Source of the DNA: a virus | Strand: one strand, 5' to 3' | DNA length: 36,921 bases | IMG/VR virus record: IMGVR_UViG_3300021376_000158 | Span: 1 to 36,921 of that record | Shown here: positions 4,286 through 23,341 of the stretch, piece after piece | Layout of the letters: each line of letters begins with the position of its first letter | Position numbering within the stretch: position 1 is the stretch's first letter | Translations under genes and position numbers: made by a program | Notes under the pieces: generated by a model | Database searches by the model: none | Told to the model about the DNA's origin: nothing | What the model saw: only the letters and a program-made list of their open reading frames with translations

Positions 4286-6112
4286 ATGCCTCCCGTTGTC
4301 CTTCCTCCTTTTGTAGTCAACGCGGCTCCATTTCGGCAATCGCTTGGGTTTGGTATTTCAGAGCCGGATGAATTTGATACTGATGGAATAGAAATCAGCC
4401 CAGGCATATTTAATTTTGACACAAACATTTTCCAAGGGCCGCTAAGAGGCGGACAAAACCAAATTGTCACATTGCCGCCATTTGTGGTGACGGCAGATCG
4501 CATTGACACGCCGGGGCTCGCTACGCCGTACATGGGCACCCCTTTCTATGTCCGCCCAGAGGGAACTGAAGGAATCGAGCAGTCTCCAACCCCCTACATG
4601 GGCACCCCTTTCTACGTTCGCCCAGAAGGAACTGAAAGAATCGAGCAGTCTCCAACCCCCTACATGGGCACCCCTTTCTATGTCAGTACGGACAGGATCA
4701 CAACTCCATCAATTGAGATTACGCCTGGCATCTTTAATCCTCCTACGGTTGGACCGCCTTTATTGTCCCCAACCCCCTACATGGGCACCCCTTTCTACGT
4801 TAGTACGGATAGGATCACAACCCCATTAATTGAGATTACGCCTGGCATCTTTAATCCTCCTACGTTTGGACCGCCTTTACTGTCTCCAACCCCCCTGGTA
4901 TCCACACCTATCCCAACTCCGTCTCCGTTTGAGCCATCTCTAACGCTTCCATCCCCGACGCCTACGCCCATCGTTGGAGGAGGAGGCCCTTCCACCGTGA
5001 CTACTACTTCTACAGGAACCTCGCCCCAGCGCGACTTTGAAGCGGAATTGGGCAAAACGCTCGTCGCTCTGTCGCGCTACCAGCCGCAGATGCTTGGAAT
5101 GTATAAGGACTTGTATCAGTCGTTTATGCCGGCTGGGCTGACAGCGGCTGAGACCAGCGGACTAGCCCAGATGCGGGCGGATGAGGAAAAGCTCAACCGC
5201 CTGCGTCAGGGCATCCTGAGCCCCGAGGATATCCGTACCGCCACCCAGGGCGCGAGGGAGGCCTACGGCGCCCGCGGGCAAGTGTTTGCGCCTGGCGCCA
5301 TTGGAGCGGAAATCCTTAACCGGGAAGCCATCCGCCAGCAGCGGGAGGATCAGGCCCGTGCTGCCTATCAGCAGTCGATGGGCAACCTGATGAACGTAGC
5401 CAATCTGCAAACCGGCAACATCTTCCAGCCCATCAGCAGCCTGCTGTCCAGTTCTTTCAACCCGCTCGGTGCCTACCCGGCGGATGTGTACGGGACCAAC
5501 GTCAATGCCGCCTTGGCCCGAGAAATCGCGGAGCGCAACAAGGAGGCCGCCATCGAGTCTGCCCGGCTCTCTGGACAGGCTCAAAGTTCGGCTGCTCGAG
5601 CTTCTGCTGGTGGCAGCATCGCAGGTGCAGCACTCCCATTTGCCATCAAAGGCGTAGGCGCTCTGTTCAGTATCCCGCTTCCGTCTTGTATGCCTGGCAA
5701 TCAGTGCATCGATACCCCCACCGGCCCCAAGGCCATTCAAGACCTCAAAGGCGGAGATATCGTCATCGGCTACGATGGCAGGGAAGCCTTCATCATGCAG
5801 GCGTGCAGTTGGAACCAAGATCCGACCCGTACCTTCCTCACGATCACCCGCGAGGACGGCACCGCCTTCACGGTGTGCGATGACCATAAGATCCTTGGCA
5901 TTCCCGCGATGGAGTGGGCGGAAGGTGCGGATATGGCGGGCAGCCGCATCAAGTCCATCACGGCCAGTAACGGCTTCCTGACCAGCTACGACATCCTGAC
6001 CAATCAGGGCGGTTATCGGATTGCCGGCGTGCCGGTGAACTCGATGATCCCTGAGATCATCCGCCTTGCCGCCCGCTTTGAGGCCCTGAGTGCCTCGCAG
6101 AACCCCGCCTAA
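4286..6112 (+). CDS. Virion protein with proline-rich repeats and C-terminal Hint (intein-like) domain (608 aa)
   Basis: Residues 1-79 contain LPPFVVNA and LPPFVVTADRI. Residues 80-201 are four tandem units starting TPYMGTPFYV (two of 22 and two of 39 residues). Residues about 235-440 are helical and resemble internal or core proteins of short-tailed phages (AREAYGARGQ...AEILNREAIRQQR). Residues about 440-466 are a Gly/Ala-rich hydrophobic stretch. Residues 468-585 match a Hint domain: Cys468 in CMPGNQC followed by G.KAI.DLKGGDIV (block A), DDHKIL (block B), SYDI (block F) and GVPVNS with Asn585 followed by Ser586 (block G). There is no homing endonuclease. Only 23 residues follow. It may self-cleave or splice late in assembly. 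The block-G His is Val and the block-B Thr is Cys, so activity is uncertain. Confidence 0.8.
   Translation: MPPVVLPPFVVNAAPFRQSLGFGISEPDEFDTDGIEISPGIFNFDTNIFQGPLRGGQNQIVTLPPFVVTADRIDTPGLATPYMGTPFYVRPEGTEGIEQSPTPYMGTPFYVRPEGTERIEQSPTPYMGTPFYVSTDRITTPSIEITPGIFNPPTVGPPLLSPTPYMGTPFYVSTDRITTPLIEITPGIFNPPTFGPPLLSPTPLVSTPIPTPSPFEPSLTLPSPTPTPIVGGGGPSTVTTTSTGTSPQRDFEAELGKTLVALSRYQPQMLGMYKDLYQSFMPAGLTAAETSGLAQMRADEEKLNRLRQGILSPEDIRTATQGAREAYGARGQVFAPGAIGAEILNREAIRQQREDQARAAYQQSMGNLMNVANLQTGNIFQPISSLLSSSFNPLGAYPADVYGTNVNAALAREIAERNKEAAIESARLSGQAQSSAARASAGGSIAGAALPFAIKGVGALFSIPLPSCMPGNQCIDTPTGPKAIQDLKGGDIVIGYDGREAFIMQACSWNQDPTRTFLTITREDGTAFTVCDDHKILGIPAMEWAEGADMAGSRIKSITASNGFLTSYDILTNQGGYRIAGVPVNSMIPEIIRLAARFEALSASQNPA
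4523..4888 (+). repeat. Tandem coding repeats (2 x 66 bp, 2 x 117 bp)
   Basis: Units begin at 4523, 4589, 4655 and 4772, each opening with codons for TPYMGTPFYV. The first two are 66 bp and the last two 117 bp. They differ by only a few substitutions, so the duplications look recent. Related fragments (IEISPGIFN) lie just upstream at about residues 36-44. Unit number could vary by slippage or recombination without breaking the frame. Confidence 0.95.
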
Positions 6113-12670: not shown

Positions 12671-12874
12671 TCACAGGCGGATGTAAGGCGGGGGCGGTTC
12701 CTTGCGTAGGCGGTAGAAATTACAGACCTGCCAGCAGTACGGATGCGAGAGATCGAACTTGGCCGCGATCTCCTTGATTGGCGTGCCCTTCCAGTAGAGG
12801 AGCCGCATCTCCTTGACGGCCTCCGGGGTCGTCTTCACGCGGTAATGGACTTTGGCCTGATAGTTGCGGGGCAT
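12671..12874 (-). CDS. Small HTH DNA-binding protein (67 aa)
   Basis: Residues 15-52 (TTPEAVKEMRLLYWKGTPIKEIAAKFDLSHPYCWQVCNF) form a resolvase/Sigma70-like helix-turn-helix: an initiating helix, then KEIAAKF and a recognition helix. The tail is proline-rich. Its stop is adjacent to the ATG of the RusA-like gene. Its first 155 bases overlap the distal end of the 12720-13391 reading frame in another frame. The clear HTH argues that this frame is real. It may regulate phage genes or assist replication; the target is unknown. Confidence 0.68.
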   Translation of the reverse strand: MPRNYQAKVHYRVKTTPEAVKEMRLLYWKGTPIKEIAAKFDLSHPYCWQVCNFYRLRKEPPPPYIRL

Positions 12875-13391
12875 GGAGTTTACCGAGGATGTACTTCTGG
12901 GCGGCGGGGTCGAGCGCAGACCACGGGCGGCTGGCCCAGGACGGGTCGTTGCTGTTGGCAGTCACCCACTCCCGCCAGCCCGGAGGCTCCCAGACGGGGG
13001 CGGCCGGCTTGGGGAAACTGGTCTGCCCCGCACCGTTGATCGAGACCGGCCGCTCCACCTTGTTCAGCCAGTTGACGAACCGCTGGCGGGTCACCCCCAC
13101 CCCCTTGACCGAGGCCCAAGCCTGCGCCTTCCCAAGCTCCCGTTTGATGTCGATTCCCCGGTAGGCCTCGTTGGCCTCCAGTTCCGCGATCCAATCCTGA
13201 TCCGCCTCCTTGGGCCGTTTCCGCGAGACGGGCTTTGGCCGGGCCTCCCAGGCGGCATGGGCCTGATCCACCGCTGCCAGCCATTCCTCCCTGTTGAGCC
13301 TCCTGCCAAGGGTCTTGGCCTTCCCCGCGCAGGCCGCAAACGCCCAATCAGCGAATCGCGTCGAGGTAAAGATTGGTAACTCTTTGTCCAT
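12720..13391 (-). CDS. Hypothetical replication-operon protein (223 aa, C-terminus doubtful)
   Basis: Residues 1-175 look like a normal protein with several helices, including RELGKAQAWASVKGVGVTRQRFVNWLNKV, which could bind DNA, and a Trp/Pro-rich segment ending near DPAAQKYILGKLH. The last 50 residues (APQLSGQSPLPREDD...) are low in hydrophobics and overlap the HTH gene by 155 bases in another frame. That suggests a lost stop or a small frameshift near 12875. The start at 13391 overlaps the end of the upstream lipoprotein gene by 44 bases. No family is recognised. Confidence 0.6.
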   Translation of the reverse strand: MDKELPIFTSTRFADWAFAACAGKAKTLGRRLNREEWLAAVDQAHAAWEARPKPVSRKRPKEADQDWIAELEANEAYRGIDIKRELGKAQAWASVKGVGVTRQRFVNWLNKVERPVSINGAGQTSFPKPAAPVWEPPGWREWVTANSNDPSWASRPWSALDPAAQKYILGKLHAPQLSGQSPLPREDDPGGRQGDAAPLLEGHANQGDRGQVRSLASVLLAGL

Positions 13392-20114: not shown

Positions 20115-20357
20115 TTACTTGGTGCTCGCAGGTGCGGCGGCGTCACCATTGCGCTGCTTAGAGTCCGCGTCAAGCCTGGCCAAAGCCCCCTCCTGAGCCA
20201 GAATGTGCGGCGCCGGCCGCCGGGAATCCTCCCAATGCTGGATGGTCCGCCGGCTGACGGACAGGAGTTTGGCGGCCCCGGTCTGGGTCAAATCCAGGGT
20301 CCGGCGGGCGCAGCGGAGCGTCTCCGCGAAAGTGATTTCTTGGTCAGTCGAATTCAT
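20115..20357 (-). CDS. XRE/Cro-type HTH transcription regulator (80 aa)
   Basis: ATG 20357 gives 80 residues; an in-frame TTG lies at 20366. Residues 10-47 (FAETLRCARRTLDLTQTGAAKLLSVSRRTIQHWEDSRRPAP) are a classic Cro/C1 helix-turn-helix, with TQTGAAKLLSVS as helices 2-3 and the recognition segment RRTIQHWED. The short Ala-rich tail gives no metal site or sensor domain. It is encoded alone, convergent to the plus operon, with a repeat array (20363-20413) just upstream of its start. The simplest reading is an autoregulated repressor controlling early genes. No integrase was found, so lysogeny is not established. Confidence 0.82.
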   Translation of the reverse strand: MNSTDQEITFAETLRCARRTLDLTQTGAAKLLSVSRRTIQHWEDSRRPAPHILAQEGALARLDADSKQRNGDAAAPASTK

Positions 20358-20362
20358 TTGGG

Positions 20363-20413
20363 TCAAATTGGGTCAGATCAAATTGGGTCAGATCAAATCA
20401 AGTTGGGTCAAAC
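20363..20413. repeat. TCAAAT/TTGGG array next to the HTH regulator start
   Basis: TCAAAT-like words start at 20363, 20378, 20393, 20398 (TCAAGT) and 20408 (TCAAAC), with TCAGAT at 20373 and 20388. All spacings are multiples of 5 bp, with TTGGG between them. It lies directly upstream of the regulator ATG and would overlap its promoter. Likely operators of the regulator; an iteron origin is an alternative. Confidence 0.7.
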
Positions 20414-20583
20414 CTAAGCGCACGAAATGCGCCGGTATAAGCCCAACTATTGGCAGGCCGGTCAAATGCGTTTAAACAGGCGATCCCGCCCGGTTTGGGT
20501 CAGGACCGCCCCGGGGGCCGGAAAGGGCCGCAAATGGGCAAGAAAAGGCCTCGGCGGTGAACCGGGGCCAAGGTTTACGGGGG
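20414..20583. other. Intergenic stretch between regulator array and minus cassette end
   Basis: 170 bp with no supported gene. It contains another GGGTCAGG word near 20497 and G/C-rich segments. Short plus frames here give Arg/Pro-rich products with no recognisable motif. Confidence 0.4.
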
Positions 20584-20838
20584 TTACCAGTCCGCCTGCG
20601 CTTCCTCAGCGACCCTGAGCACGCCGGCAGGATCGCGGTACGTCCAAAGGACCGCTTGGCACCTATCCTCCCGGCCGGATTCCTGATAGCCGGCTTCGCC
20701 CAGAATTTCAAAGCCGCCGTCACTCCACTCGTCGTTTTCCTCCACGACGTAGGCCCAGAGGCCTTCGCGACCCGAGGCGAGCAGCCGGCCGCGGGCGCCG
20801 GCAATGGCGGCCGATAGGTTGCGGGTGGTGAGGCTCAT
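20584..20838 (-). CDS. Hypothetical protein (84 aa)
   Basis: Last gene of the four-gene minus cassette. The product (MSLTTRNLSAAIAGARGRLL...) contains an acidic beta-rich middle (AYVVEENDEWSDGGFEILGEAGYQE) and a C-terminal VLRVAEEAQADW. Its ATG overlaps the preceding stop (20835) by four bases. No family is recognised. The GC-rich, GCCGGC-rich base usage matches the rest of this region. Confidence 0.6.
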   Translation of the reverse strand: MSLTTRNLSAAIAGARGRLLASGREGLWAYVVEENDEWSDGGFEILGEAGYQESGREDRCQAVLWTYRDPAGVLRVAEEAQADW

Positions 20839-21185
20839 CGGCTGGCCTCCTCGATCCGCCGGCAGATGGCGCGGGCTGCCTCCAGGAGTGCGGCATCCTC
20901 CGGGTCAAGATCGACCTCGCCCAAGTCCGCCGCCGCCCCGAGCTGCTGCAAGATGCGGAACATCTCTGGTGCCGCCGCGATCATGGCGGCCGCCTGGGCC
21001 TCCTGCGCCCAGGTCCGCGTCGCCGGCCGCTGGGGTTCCGGCGTGTCAAGCGCGGACTCGCACGCGACCTGGCACACCAGCCGGTCGCCAATCTGCCGGC
21101 CGTCGCGCCAATATGGTGCCGTATAAACGGCCAGGCCATCAGCTTGCCAGCGTTGCGCCATGGGAAGGAAATCGGCGGGGCTCAT
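20835..21185 (-). CDS. Hypothetical protein (116 aa)
   Basis: The product begins MSPADFLPMAQRWQADGLAVYTAPYWRDGRQIGDRL. It continues with an Ala/Glu-rich half (QAAAMIAAAPEMFRILQQLGAAADL...AALLEAARAICRRIEEASR). APEMFRIL...AALLEAARA.. resembles a short helical module found in many phage accessory proteins. It is four-base coupled to both neighbours. The function is unknown. Confidence 0.62.
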   Translation of the reverse strand: MSPADFLPMAQRWQADGLAVYTAPYWRDGRQIGDRLVCQVACESALDTPEPQRPATRTWAQEAQAAAMIAAAPEMFRILQQLGAAADLGEVDLDPEDAALLEAARAICRRIEEASR

Positions 21186-21361
21186 GATTCGTCCTCCTCC
21201 TGCCAGATCTCGGGGAAATCGGAGGCCTCGGCCCAGGCCTCCTCCCGGTCAAATGTGACCAGAATGACGCGGCCGACGCGATTCGTAAGCGTGTACCGGG
21301 CAACATACTCGCCGGGTTCCTCGGCGGGTTCGACGCGATAGGTGAGACGTGCGGCGCTCAT
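21182..21361 (-). CDS. Hypothetical protein (59 aa)
   Basis: ATG 21361 overlaps the previous stop (21358). The small acidic, beta-rich product (MSAARLTYRVEPAEEPGEYVARYTLTNRVGRVILVTFDRE) ends EIWQEEDES. Its strong negative C-terminus is typical of small phage inhibitors and DNA mimics, but that is only a compositional remark. Confidence 0.58.
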   Translation of the reverse strand: MSAARLTYRVEPAEEPGEYVARYTLTNRVGRVILVTFDREEAWAEASDFPEIWQEEDES

Positions 21362-21555
21362 CGGGCGGCCTCCTTCGCTTCCTTCATCCAGCCTGCCCAT
21401 TGCTCCTGGGCGGCGACGATCACCTCGAAACGCTCCCAAGGCGTCAAGGTGCGGTTGTCGTCCTGCCAGGCAACGAGCGCGGCGCCGTAGGTTCCGCACA
21501 GGTCGCGGAATTCGTTCAACGTATTGACTGCGGATTTCAGTTCTGCGGATGTCAT
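21358..21555 (-). CDS. Hypothetical protein, first gene of the minus cassette (65 aa)
   Basis: The product (MTSAELKSAVNTLNEFRDLCGTYGAALVAWQDDNRTL...) is helical, ending EQWAGWMKEAKEAAR. Its ATG at 21555 is the operon start. Upstream lie the 17-bp palindrome (21603) and the seven-copy TCAAAT array (21649-21739), which are likely control sites. Confidence 0.58.
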   Translation of the reverse strand: MTSAELKSAVNTLNEFRDLCGTYGAALVAWQDDNRTLTPWERFEVIVAAQEQWAGWMKEAKEAAR

Positions 21556-21602
21556 GGTATCGGGTTATCCCGGAGCGGAATTGCCCCGGTGAAACAGAGT
21601 GA

Positions 21603-21619
21603 GGCGCAATGATTGCGCC
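21603..21619. promoter_or_regulatory. Perfect 17-bp palindrome (operator candidate)
   Basis: GGCGCAAT-G-ATTGCGCC is an exact 8+1+8 palindrome, 48-64 bp upstream of the 21555 start. On the minus strand it directly follows a TTGACC box, so it could overlap the operon promoter. A dimeric repressor site is the simplest reading. Confidence 0.6.
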
Positions 21620-21648
21620 GGGTCAAGATTAAATTGGAAAAAATCAGA

Positions 21649-21739
21649 TCAAATCAGGCCGGATCAAATCGGATCAAATTGCCCAGGATCAAATCGCCCA
21701 GGGTCAAATCACCCAGGATCAAATCCAGGCGGGTCAAAT
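21649..21739. repeat. TCAAAT array, seven copies at 15-bp spacing
   Basis: TCAAAT starts at 21649, 21664, 21674, 21689, 21704, 21719 and 21734, giving steps of 15, 10, 15, 15, 15 and 15 bp. Most are flanked as GG(A/G)TCAAATC with a CCCAGG-type spacer. The same word and the same multiples-of-5 spacing occur at 20363-20413 beside the HTH regulator. Likely protein-binding iterons (operator array or origin). Confidence 0.75.
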
Positions 21740-21914
21740 CGAGGGCGGCGAATCCGGCCGGGGTCCGGCCAGGCCTCCCCCGCCGGTAGCGTTTGCGGGC
21801 CAGCTGCGGCCCGTTTGCGGCCCATTCCCCCGGCCGCCCGTGGCAAGGCCTCCCCCGCCGGCTCCCCGCGTTCCCCCGGCCGCCGGCCGCCCGCCCTCCC
21901 CCGGCCGTGGCCAC

Positions 21915-22012
21915 CGTTCCCCCGCGTTCCCCCGCGTTCCCCCGCCGGCCGGCCGTGGCACGCTCCCCCGCTCCCCCGCCGGCCGCCCGTGGCACGCTCC
22001 CCCGCTCCCCCG
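21915..22012. repeat. GC-rich tandem repeats
   Basis: Three exact 10-bp units CGTTCCCCCG occupy 21915-21944. A 26-bp unit (CCGTGGCACGCTCC...) occurs at 21953-21978 and again at 21987-22012, spaced 34 bp. The block is almost free of A. It is C-rich on the plus strand and would form a G-rich transcript on the minus strand. Confidence 0.85.
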
Positions 22013-22041
22013 GCCGCCGGTACCGGCCGCGAGCTTGCACG

Positions 22042-22090: not shown

Positions 22091-22831
22091 TCAGCTCATG
22101 GCCACGGCGGCCGCGGTCGCGCTGCGCGACCCGTGAGGGTTAATCCATATTGAAGGACGCTGCCTCTCCGCCATCGGCCGGAATGCTTGGCCAGCCGAGC
22201 CAAACCGCCCGTTGCATAGGCGGCATTCTGCGCAGGTAATCCCCTTGGCATCTGACAGGCACTCGATCGAGCCGGCCGGCTTTTCGGGGGAAACGTGAAA
22301 GACGCGAAACCCGGCCGTGATTGCTTGGCGCAGGCTTGAGGCCGTTTCCGTGCTGGCCATGAAGTAACGCCCATACTCGGCCGCTTGCGCATGCGTGCGC
22401 CAGTCGTGAAAATAACCGGTCCATCCGTCCGAAAGCCTCGCGATTCTGTCGACAAGCGGCAAAGGCAACAGCGTTGGATTGCCGTAGGCACCGAAGCGGA
22501 CGCGCCGCTCGGAGAAAACCCGCCCATAGTCGGCCGGAGGAAGGAAGGGGTACCGGCCGCGGTGAAACGTCTCCCACACGGCGAGGGGAGCTTGCCCGAT
22601 ATTAACGTAGCAACCGCGGCCGCGGGCAAATACGCAGTCCCGGCAAATGGTCTCAAAATCGATTCCTTCTTGTACTGCTTGCACGGGGTGAATGTCGCGG
22701 AGGAGAAACCATATTTGAACCATGTCGCCCGTCTTGCGGTTGCTGGTTTCGAGCGTGGCAATGGCGACGTAAGCGCGGCCGGCAACGGTGCCAGTGTGGA
22801 GGAGGTAGCCTGTAGGATTGTCGGTTGTCAT
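22091..22831 (-). CDS. Conserved Cys-rich phage/plasmid protein, probable zinc-binding (246 aa)
   Basis: Residues 27-95 (SNRKTGDMVQIWFL.RDIHPVQAVQEG.D..ICRDCVFA...CYVNIGQAPLAVWETFHRGRYP) match a family widely encoded by phages and plasmids, whose function is not known to me. C63, C66 and C74 form one putative metal cluster. C191, C200, C203 and C206 (ECLSDAKGITCAECRLCNG) form a second. Its ATG lies 19 bases after the stop of the small membrane gene upstream, and an intrinsic terminator follows. Codon choice and GCCGGC density match neighbouring genes. Confidence 0.75.
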   Translation of the reverse strand: MTTDNPTGYLLHTGTVAGRAYVAIATLETSNRKTGDMVQIWFLLRDIHPVQAVQEGIDFETICRDCVFARGRGCYVNIGQAPLAVWETFHRGRYPFLPPADYGRVFSERRVRFGAYGNPTLLPLPLVDRIARLSDGWTGYFHDWRTHAQAAEYGRYFMASTETASSLRQAITAGFRVFHVSPEKPAGSIECLSDAKGITCAECRLCNGRFGSAGQAFRPMAERQRPSIWINPHGSRSATAAAVAMS

Positions 22832-23242: not shown

Positions 23243-23341
23243 GCCGTCACCGTGGCCACCTTCCCCTCACTAAGCAAGCGCAAACTATGCGCCTTCTGCT
23301 TTTTCTTGCTCCCCCCCGTTCCCCCGGTTTGCAATTCCCTT

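Follow-up and report, generated by a model that had tools for sequence, protein, structure and literature searches.

Question and source of the DNA

Two rows of short direct repeats flank a small leftward gene cassette in an uncultured viral genome, one of them beside a gene for an XRE/Cro-like regulator, and the question raised by this locus is whether that regulator reads both rows as a multi-operator switch, as a preliminary description had proposed, or whether the rows have another reader or another role. The DNA analysed (the window) was the whole virus record IMGVR_UViG_3300021376_000158, with a length of 36,921 bases. By its gene content the record is assigned to an uncultured tailed phage, marked by a terminase (PHROG 2), a major head protein (PHROG 1328), a portal-sized open reading frame and an exonuclease. 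Capsid relatives were distant (42% identity and below) and included Phage C75C1, Methylophilales phage Venkman, and Rhizobium and Pseudomonas phages; the portal-sized protein had one named relative (35% identity), and terminase relatives at 66-90% identity were common in IMG/VR. Phage C75C1, the nearest named phage, had no comparable array, and its replication genes differ. The search for a host in bacterial and archaeal genomes with the portal and capsid proteins found neither a relative nor a host, and the searches for Rfam families and tRNAs found none. The gene at 4286-6112 carries in-frame internal repeats of 66 bp and 117 bp, and its C-terminal part reads as Hint/intein-like.

All relatives compared were metagenomic contigs with predicted gene starts, namely G001 (L034), G002-G004 (L057-L059), G005 (L072), G006 (L074), G007 (L017), G008 (L026), G009 (L028), G010 (a partial record) and G014 (L067), and the close relatives represent about four independent array types.

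Repeat arrays of the window

The arrays and the features around them are as follows.

20360..20414, plus strand: array 1, four GGRTCAAAYY-type 10-mers with a 15-bp period, directly upstream of the minus-strand XRE start codon
21646..21740, plus strand: array 2, seven GGRTCAAATY copies, upstream of the minus-strand cassette
20115..20357, minus strand: XRE/Cro-like regulator, 80 aa, HTH_31 above the Pfam cut-off
20584..21555, minus strand: four overlapping small genes (20584-20838, 20835-21185, 21182-21361 and 21358-21555)
22091..22831, minus strand: conserved gene on the far side of array 2, PHROG 2554 (a PHROG without assigned function)
20467..20477, no strand: conserved block TGCGTTTAAAC beside array 1, common to G005-G009

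The regulator gene and the overlapping four-gene cassette agreed with the preliminary description, as did the position of the TCAAAT words. On the plus strand TCAAAT starts at 20363, 20378 and 20393 in array 1, followed by TCAAAC at 20408 and interleaved with the variants TCAGAT (20373 and 20388) and TCAAGT (20398), and in array 2 it starts at 21649, 21664, 21674, 21689, 21704, 21719 and 21734. The spacings are 15, 15 and 15 bp in array 1 and 15, 10, 15, 15, 15 and 15 bp in array 2, and thus the reported 5-bp register is real. The repeat unit is better described as the 10-mer GGRTCAAATY followed by five variable bases, with starts at 20360, 20375, 20390 and 20405 in array 1 and at 21646, 21661, 21671, 21686, 21701, 21716 and 21731 in array 2. 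Between the copies of array 2, identity was 0.88-0.91 in the core and 0.29-0.38 in the spacer. The maximum density of TCAAAT was 7 copies per 100 bp, compared with a peak of 3 copies per 100 bp for hexamers with at least three A/T in 40 dinucleotide shuffles of the window. Since the bare hexamer was not clearly enriched over the whole window (22 copies versus 14.4 expected; 6 of 100 shuffles as high), clustering and register constitute the signal. Of three stray copies of the word, two lie within genes (20288 in that of the XRE regulator, 21249 in one of the cassette), and the copy at 20462 precedes array 1 on its upstream side.

Both arrays are positioned upstream of minus-strand genes. The cassette yielded no recognised DNA-binding domain with Pfam and PHROGs (three of its four genes), and its genes are replaced by other genes in the relatives. 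The rest of the array 2 gap (21780-22020) is occupied by GC-rich tandem repeats (CGTTCCCCCG and longer TCCCCCG units), and different repeats are found at this place in L067 (4900-5200) and L209 (5180-5380). Array copies were also considered as -35 boxes of sigma-70-like promoters, and none was found near the gene starts of the window; single array copies with a fair -10 element at 15-17 bp are present in G003, G004 and G014.

BLAST of array 2 against phages and plasmids gave no match. A database scan with the 15-bp pattern found the same phage in another sample (L284), and the other matches were mostly pentapeptide-repeat or other coding repeats, together with L279, an AT-rich sequence with short frames. 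The scan with a 14-bp period gave a single match, an AT-rich 14-bp repeat in L083, a contig of no seen relation. A pentapeptide-repeat gene of G001 (2161-2421, oriented) has an exact 15-bp DNA period and served as a control against mistaking coding repeats for arrays.

Arrays in related phages

Scans and sequence reading located arrays in the same minus-strand gene block of the relatives, each with its own word and its own period; one word is shared by the arrays within a genome, and words differ between genomes. The word of G006-G009 is GGGTAAAAT at a 14-15 bp period, with two arrays in each genome. G002-G004 carry GGTC[A/G]AAT at 12-13 bp: the array 2 gap holds 11-13 copies and a smaller row occurs near the position of array 1, to which G002 and G003 add a mini-row in a third gap. 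One of the short rows of G002-G004 lies in a gap where convergent genes face each other with their 3' ends. G014 has two arrays of G[A/G]TCAAGC at a period of mostly 9-10 bp, and its rows look freshly expanded. In G005 the array copies are degenerate, and scans of G001 and G010 found no arrays and only coding repeats. The three-copy 13-bp pattern was confined to G002-G004 among IMG/VR contigs. Copies are limited to two or three gaps per genome and are not spread genome-wide; in the window, G006-G009 and G014 these are gaps heading minus-strand genes.

GGRTCAAATY and the cores of the relatives are asymmetric and have no two-fold symmetry. All rows have the same sense within the block of minus-strand genes, which common descent may explain in part, and every copy of the word in G002-G004 lies on one strand genome-wide (11:0, 12:0 and 11:0). 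Some relatives of the PHROG 2554 gene beside array 2 have different rows close by: GTGGATCC at a spacing of 16-17 bp in L208 and L209, for example, and a CTGCAG row in the gap behind this gene in L213. In L208 (5350-5700) and L209 (4840-5170), which are more distant relatives, about 18 copies of GTGGATCC lie between a terminator and the next operon. Array 2 of G003 and G004 (L059 5340-5580, L058 4840-5030) has a CAGTAG-N5-CTACTG dyad on one flank and a pair of GTAACG-N5-CGTTAC dyads on the opposite flank, all of them candidate operators of another regulator.

A constant core, a variable spacer sequence and a fixed period were seen in five genomes. In G002-G004 the cores carry about 1.1-2 bits per position, and most spacer positions carry little information at a fixed spacer length. 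Substitutions among these three genomes amounted to 4.8-14% in cores versus 28-45% in spacers (for G003 versus G004, 4.8% at core sites and 28% at other sites), a difference that is large even though cores were chosen by their match to the word, which biases toward low core divergence. In the more similar set G006-G009 the difference had the same direction and was mostly not significant. Copy number between relatives changes by gains and losses of whole units. Cores that stay constant while spacers drift point to a periodic array, with protein binding inferred, rather than to fresh slippage, because slippage would copy the spacers along with the cores.

XRE regulator and its candidate operator

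The nearest solved relatives of the regulator include P22 c2 and 434 Cro by sequence and the restriction-modification controller C.BclI by fold. Its structure model was confident (mean pLDDT 85), and the best fold matches of the model, individually weak, were restriction-modification controllers, HipB and P22 c2. The dyad GCGCA-N5-TGCGC occurs in the window in three copies (0.12 expected from mononucleotide shuffles), each a candidate operator of the XRE regulator.

20418..20432, no strand: dyad GCGCACGAAATGCGC, distal edge of array 1
21604..21618, no strand: dyad GCGCAATGATTGCGC, between array 2 and the start of the cassette
23278..23292, no strand: dyad GCGCAAACTATGCGC, divergent gap preceding the rightward operon

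Three copies are also present in each of G005-G008 and two in the truncated G009, at the same kinds of position: at array 1, in the gap that precedes the rightward operon, and immediately behind the regulator gene (in the window, in the leader of array 2). The copy at 23278 is syntenic in L017, L026, L028, L072, L074 and L014. No copy was found in G001, G002, G003, G010 or G014, and the two copies of G004 lie within GC-rich hairpins. Since other dyads likewise reach three copies in the window and G006, the weight of this dyad lies in its recurrence and position in several genomes and not in its count. The genomes with both dyad and XRE gene (the window and G005-G009) have in common the recognition helix SRRxxQ[H/Y]W; the helices of G014 (SHRTLDSW) and of G001 and L079 (ARNTVKAW) occur in genomes without the dyad. 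The dyad therefore co-occurs with one recognition-helix subtype, and it lies at the putative promoter of that regulator. With a shape normal for operators of this fold, it is the better candidate for the operator of the XRE regulator.

The regulator lies downstream of a DNA methylase gene, identified by sequence reading, in G005, G006, G008, G009 and G014. A putative DNA cytosine methylase gene is placed between array 1 and the XRE gene in L026 (1823-3370), L067 (1218-2699) and L072 (3354-4740), an arrangement that resembles a controller-methylase operon.

Interpretation of the arrays

We tentatively favour, at somewhat less than an even chance, the reading that the arrays serve leftward operons as operators or stoperator-like sites for a putative protein; the nearby XRE regulator is probably not their reader. 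The arrays would be protein-docking strips in non-coding gaps of the leftward gene block. Each core of 8-10 bp would take a single unit of a DNA-binding protein other than the XRE regulator, which would bind there at most in a minor role, and adjacent bound units would touch, which would keep the period fixed (13-15 bp in most lineages) despite drifting spacers. The row of bound proteins may control leftward transcription by covering a promoter or stopping a passing RNA polymerase, and the XRE regulator would sit on its own dyad, nested in or beside the arrays. The contrast between cores and spacers, the genome-specific word, the single orientation and a separable XRE regulator with its own dyad all argue for this reading, although the strand bias is partly expected of direct repeats inherited by descent. 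On the other side, no binder was found, no sigma-70-like promoter was found in the gap of the window, and a single conserved protein-protein contact is not obvious because the period varies by lineage (9-10, 13, 14-15 or 15 bp). The row between convergent 3' ends in G002-G004 speaks against plain operators and fits stoperators. A more specific form, in which the arrays are tandem stoperators of a putative small protein with a lineage-specific word and step that silence or pace the leftward block independently of a classical, dyad-bound repressor, is possible and clearly less assured.

A 67-aa HTH-like protein (12671-12874, minus strand) is conserved in all long relatives and adjoins a gene that reads as RusA-like. 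It is a possible array binder and is also present in G001, which has no array.

The main rival is an iteron-type replication origin, in which an initiator would bind one or both arrays and open the DNA nearby; we regard it as possible and rather doubtful. Iterons are typically direct repeats of fixed period, A/T-richer than their surroundings, whose words are lineage-specific and usually change along with the initiator, and the variation of the arrays by whole units is in keeping with such an origin. The two separated clusters might act together, as ori1 and crr do in the satellite phage P4. Against an origin, G001 has no array at a similar length (36.6 kb) and that of G005 is degenerate, though another origin type is possible there; no initiator was recognised among the proteins scanned, many small genes being without assignment. 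The protein at 12720-13391 is a possible initiator, with a low-confidence model and no solved relative. The GC-skew extremes of all long relatives fall around 1-8 kb and 24-26 kb on the window scale and not at 20.3-21.7 kb, a weak argument against an origin since skew may follow transcription.

Non-functional, expansion-prone tandem repeats, namely minisatellites formed by replication slippage in the gap behind 22091-22831, are an unlikely source of the arrays. The GC-rich repeats of the same gap, the unrelated rows there in L208, L209 and L213 and the fresh appearance of the G014 rows would suit slippage, but cores and period have been kept despite diverged spacers, and the word recurs in two separate gaps.

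The switch of the preliminary description, with the 80-residue XRE regulator bound cooperatively to the TCAAAT arrays, seems improbable in that form. Array 1 abuts the XRE start codon, and array and XRE gene occur together in the window, G005-G009 and G014. Against this, G002-G004 have the TCAAAT core and GGTCAAAT arrays, yet profile searches detected no XRE gene in them, and G001 and G010 have an XRE gene without arrays, contrary to the expectation that arrays persist wherever the regulator is kept, though their XRE proteins have diverged (36-44% identity) and carry a different recognition helix. Arrays and regulator are thus separable both ways, and a protein of this family usually binds dyads, with the dyad here following the XRE subtype. 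What survives of the switch is a multi-site array, probably cooperative, which fits the constant core, fixed period and drifting spacer; its assignment to the XRE regulator is unsupported.

A centromere-like or packaging-related site, with rows bound by a small partition or packaging protein, is very improbable: plasmid partition sites are known to contain short direct repeats in rows, but no partition protein was recognised among the subset of ORFs scanned. That array 2 is the end of a short minus-strand pentapeptide-repeat coding sequence (containing LDLILGDLTLGDLILGNLI) is hardly credible. One minus-strand frame does stay open from 22040 to 21654 and contains five such repeats, and in L280, L282, L285, L287 and L288 the word at a 15-bp period belongs to pentapeptide-repeat coding DNA. 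Array 1, however, is closed by stop codons in each minus-strand frame, the frame of array 2 is broken by its 10-bp step, and the periods of the relatives (13 and 14-15 bp) do not fit multiples of three.

Within one phage group, several lineages have retained arrays in the same region with altered words and periods, and the series is natural material for studying co-evolution of a protein and its repeated sites. If the arrays are regulatory, they would be a tandem phage operator independent of the XRE repressor, and if they are origins, they would mark the start of DNA synthesis in a phage group without recognised replication enzymes.

Comparison with known systems

The stoperators of cluster A mycobacteriophages (L5 and relatives) are asymmetric sites in one predominant orientation with a genome-specific motif; some of them lie in promoters, the majority elsewhere (PMC6550527). 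The present arrays are likewise asymmetric, in a single orientation and with a genome-specific word, and rows also occur away from operon starts. They differ in forming tight rows of fixed period with 4-13 sites (more in G014), whereas cluster A stoperators are 20-30 scattered sites of one known repressor. Iteron-type origins of plasmids and phage satellites, such as the Vibrio cholerae PLE origin with its direct repeats in a non-coding gap and lineage-specific words (PMC7145576), share with the arrays these non-coding direct repeats and lineage-specific words; the arrays differ in having no recognised initiator, in being missing from a full-length relative and in skew extremes that lie elsewhere. 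The 17-bp phage-specific repeats of cluster O mycobacteriophages, of unknown function, have their intergenic copies concentrated in a leftward block (PMC4351075), but they are scattered dyads and the arrays are direct repeats in rows. The GCGCA-N5-TGCGC dyad and the fold of the regulator resemble the operators and proteins of XRE/Cro-like repressors, restriction-modification controllers and Aca regulators, a likeness that extends to the dyads only and not to the TCAAAT arrays.
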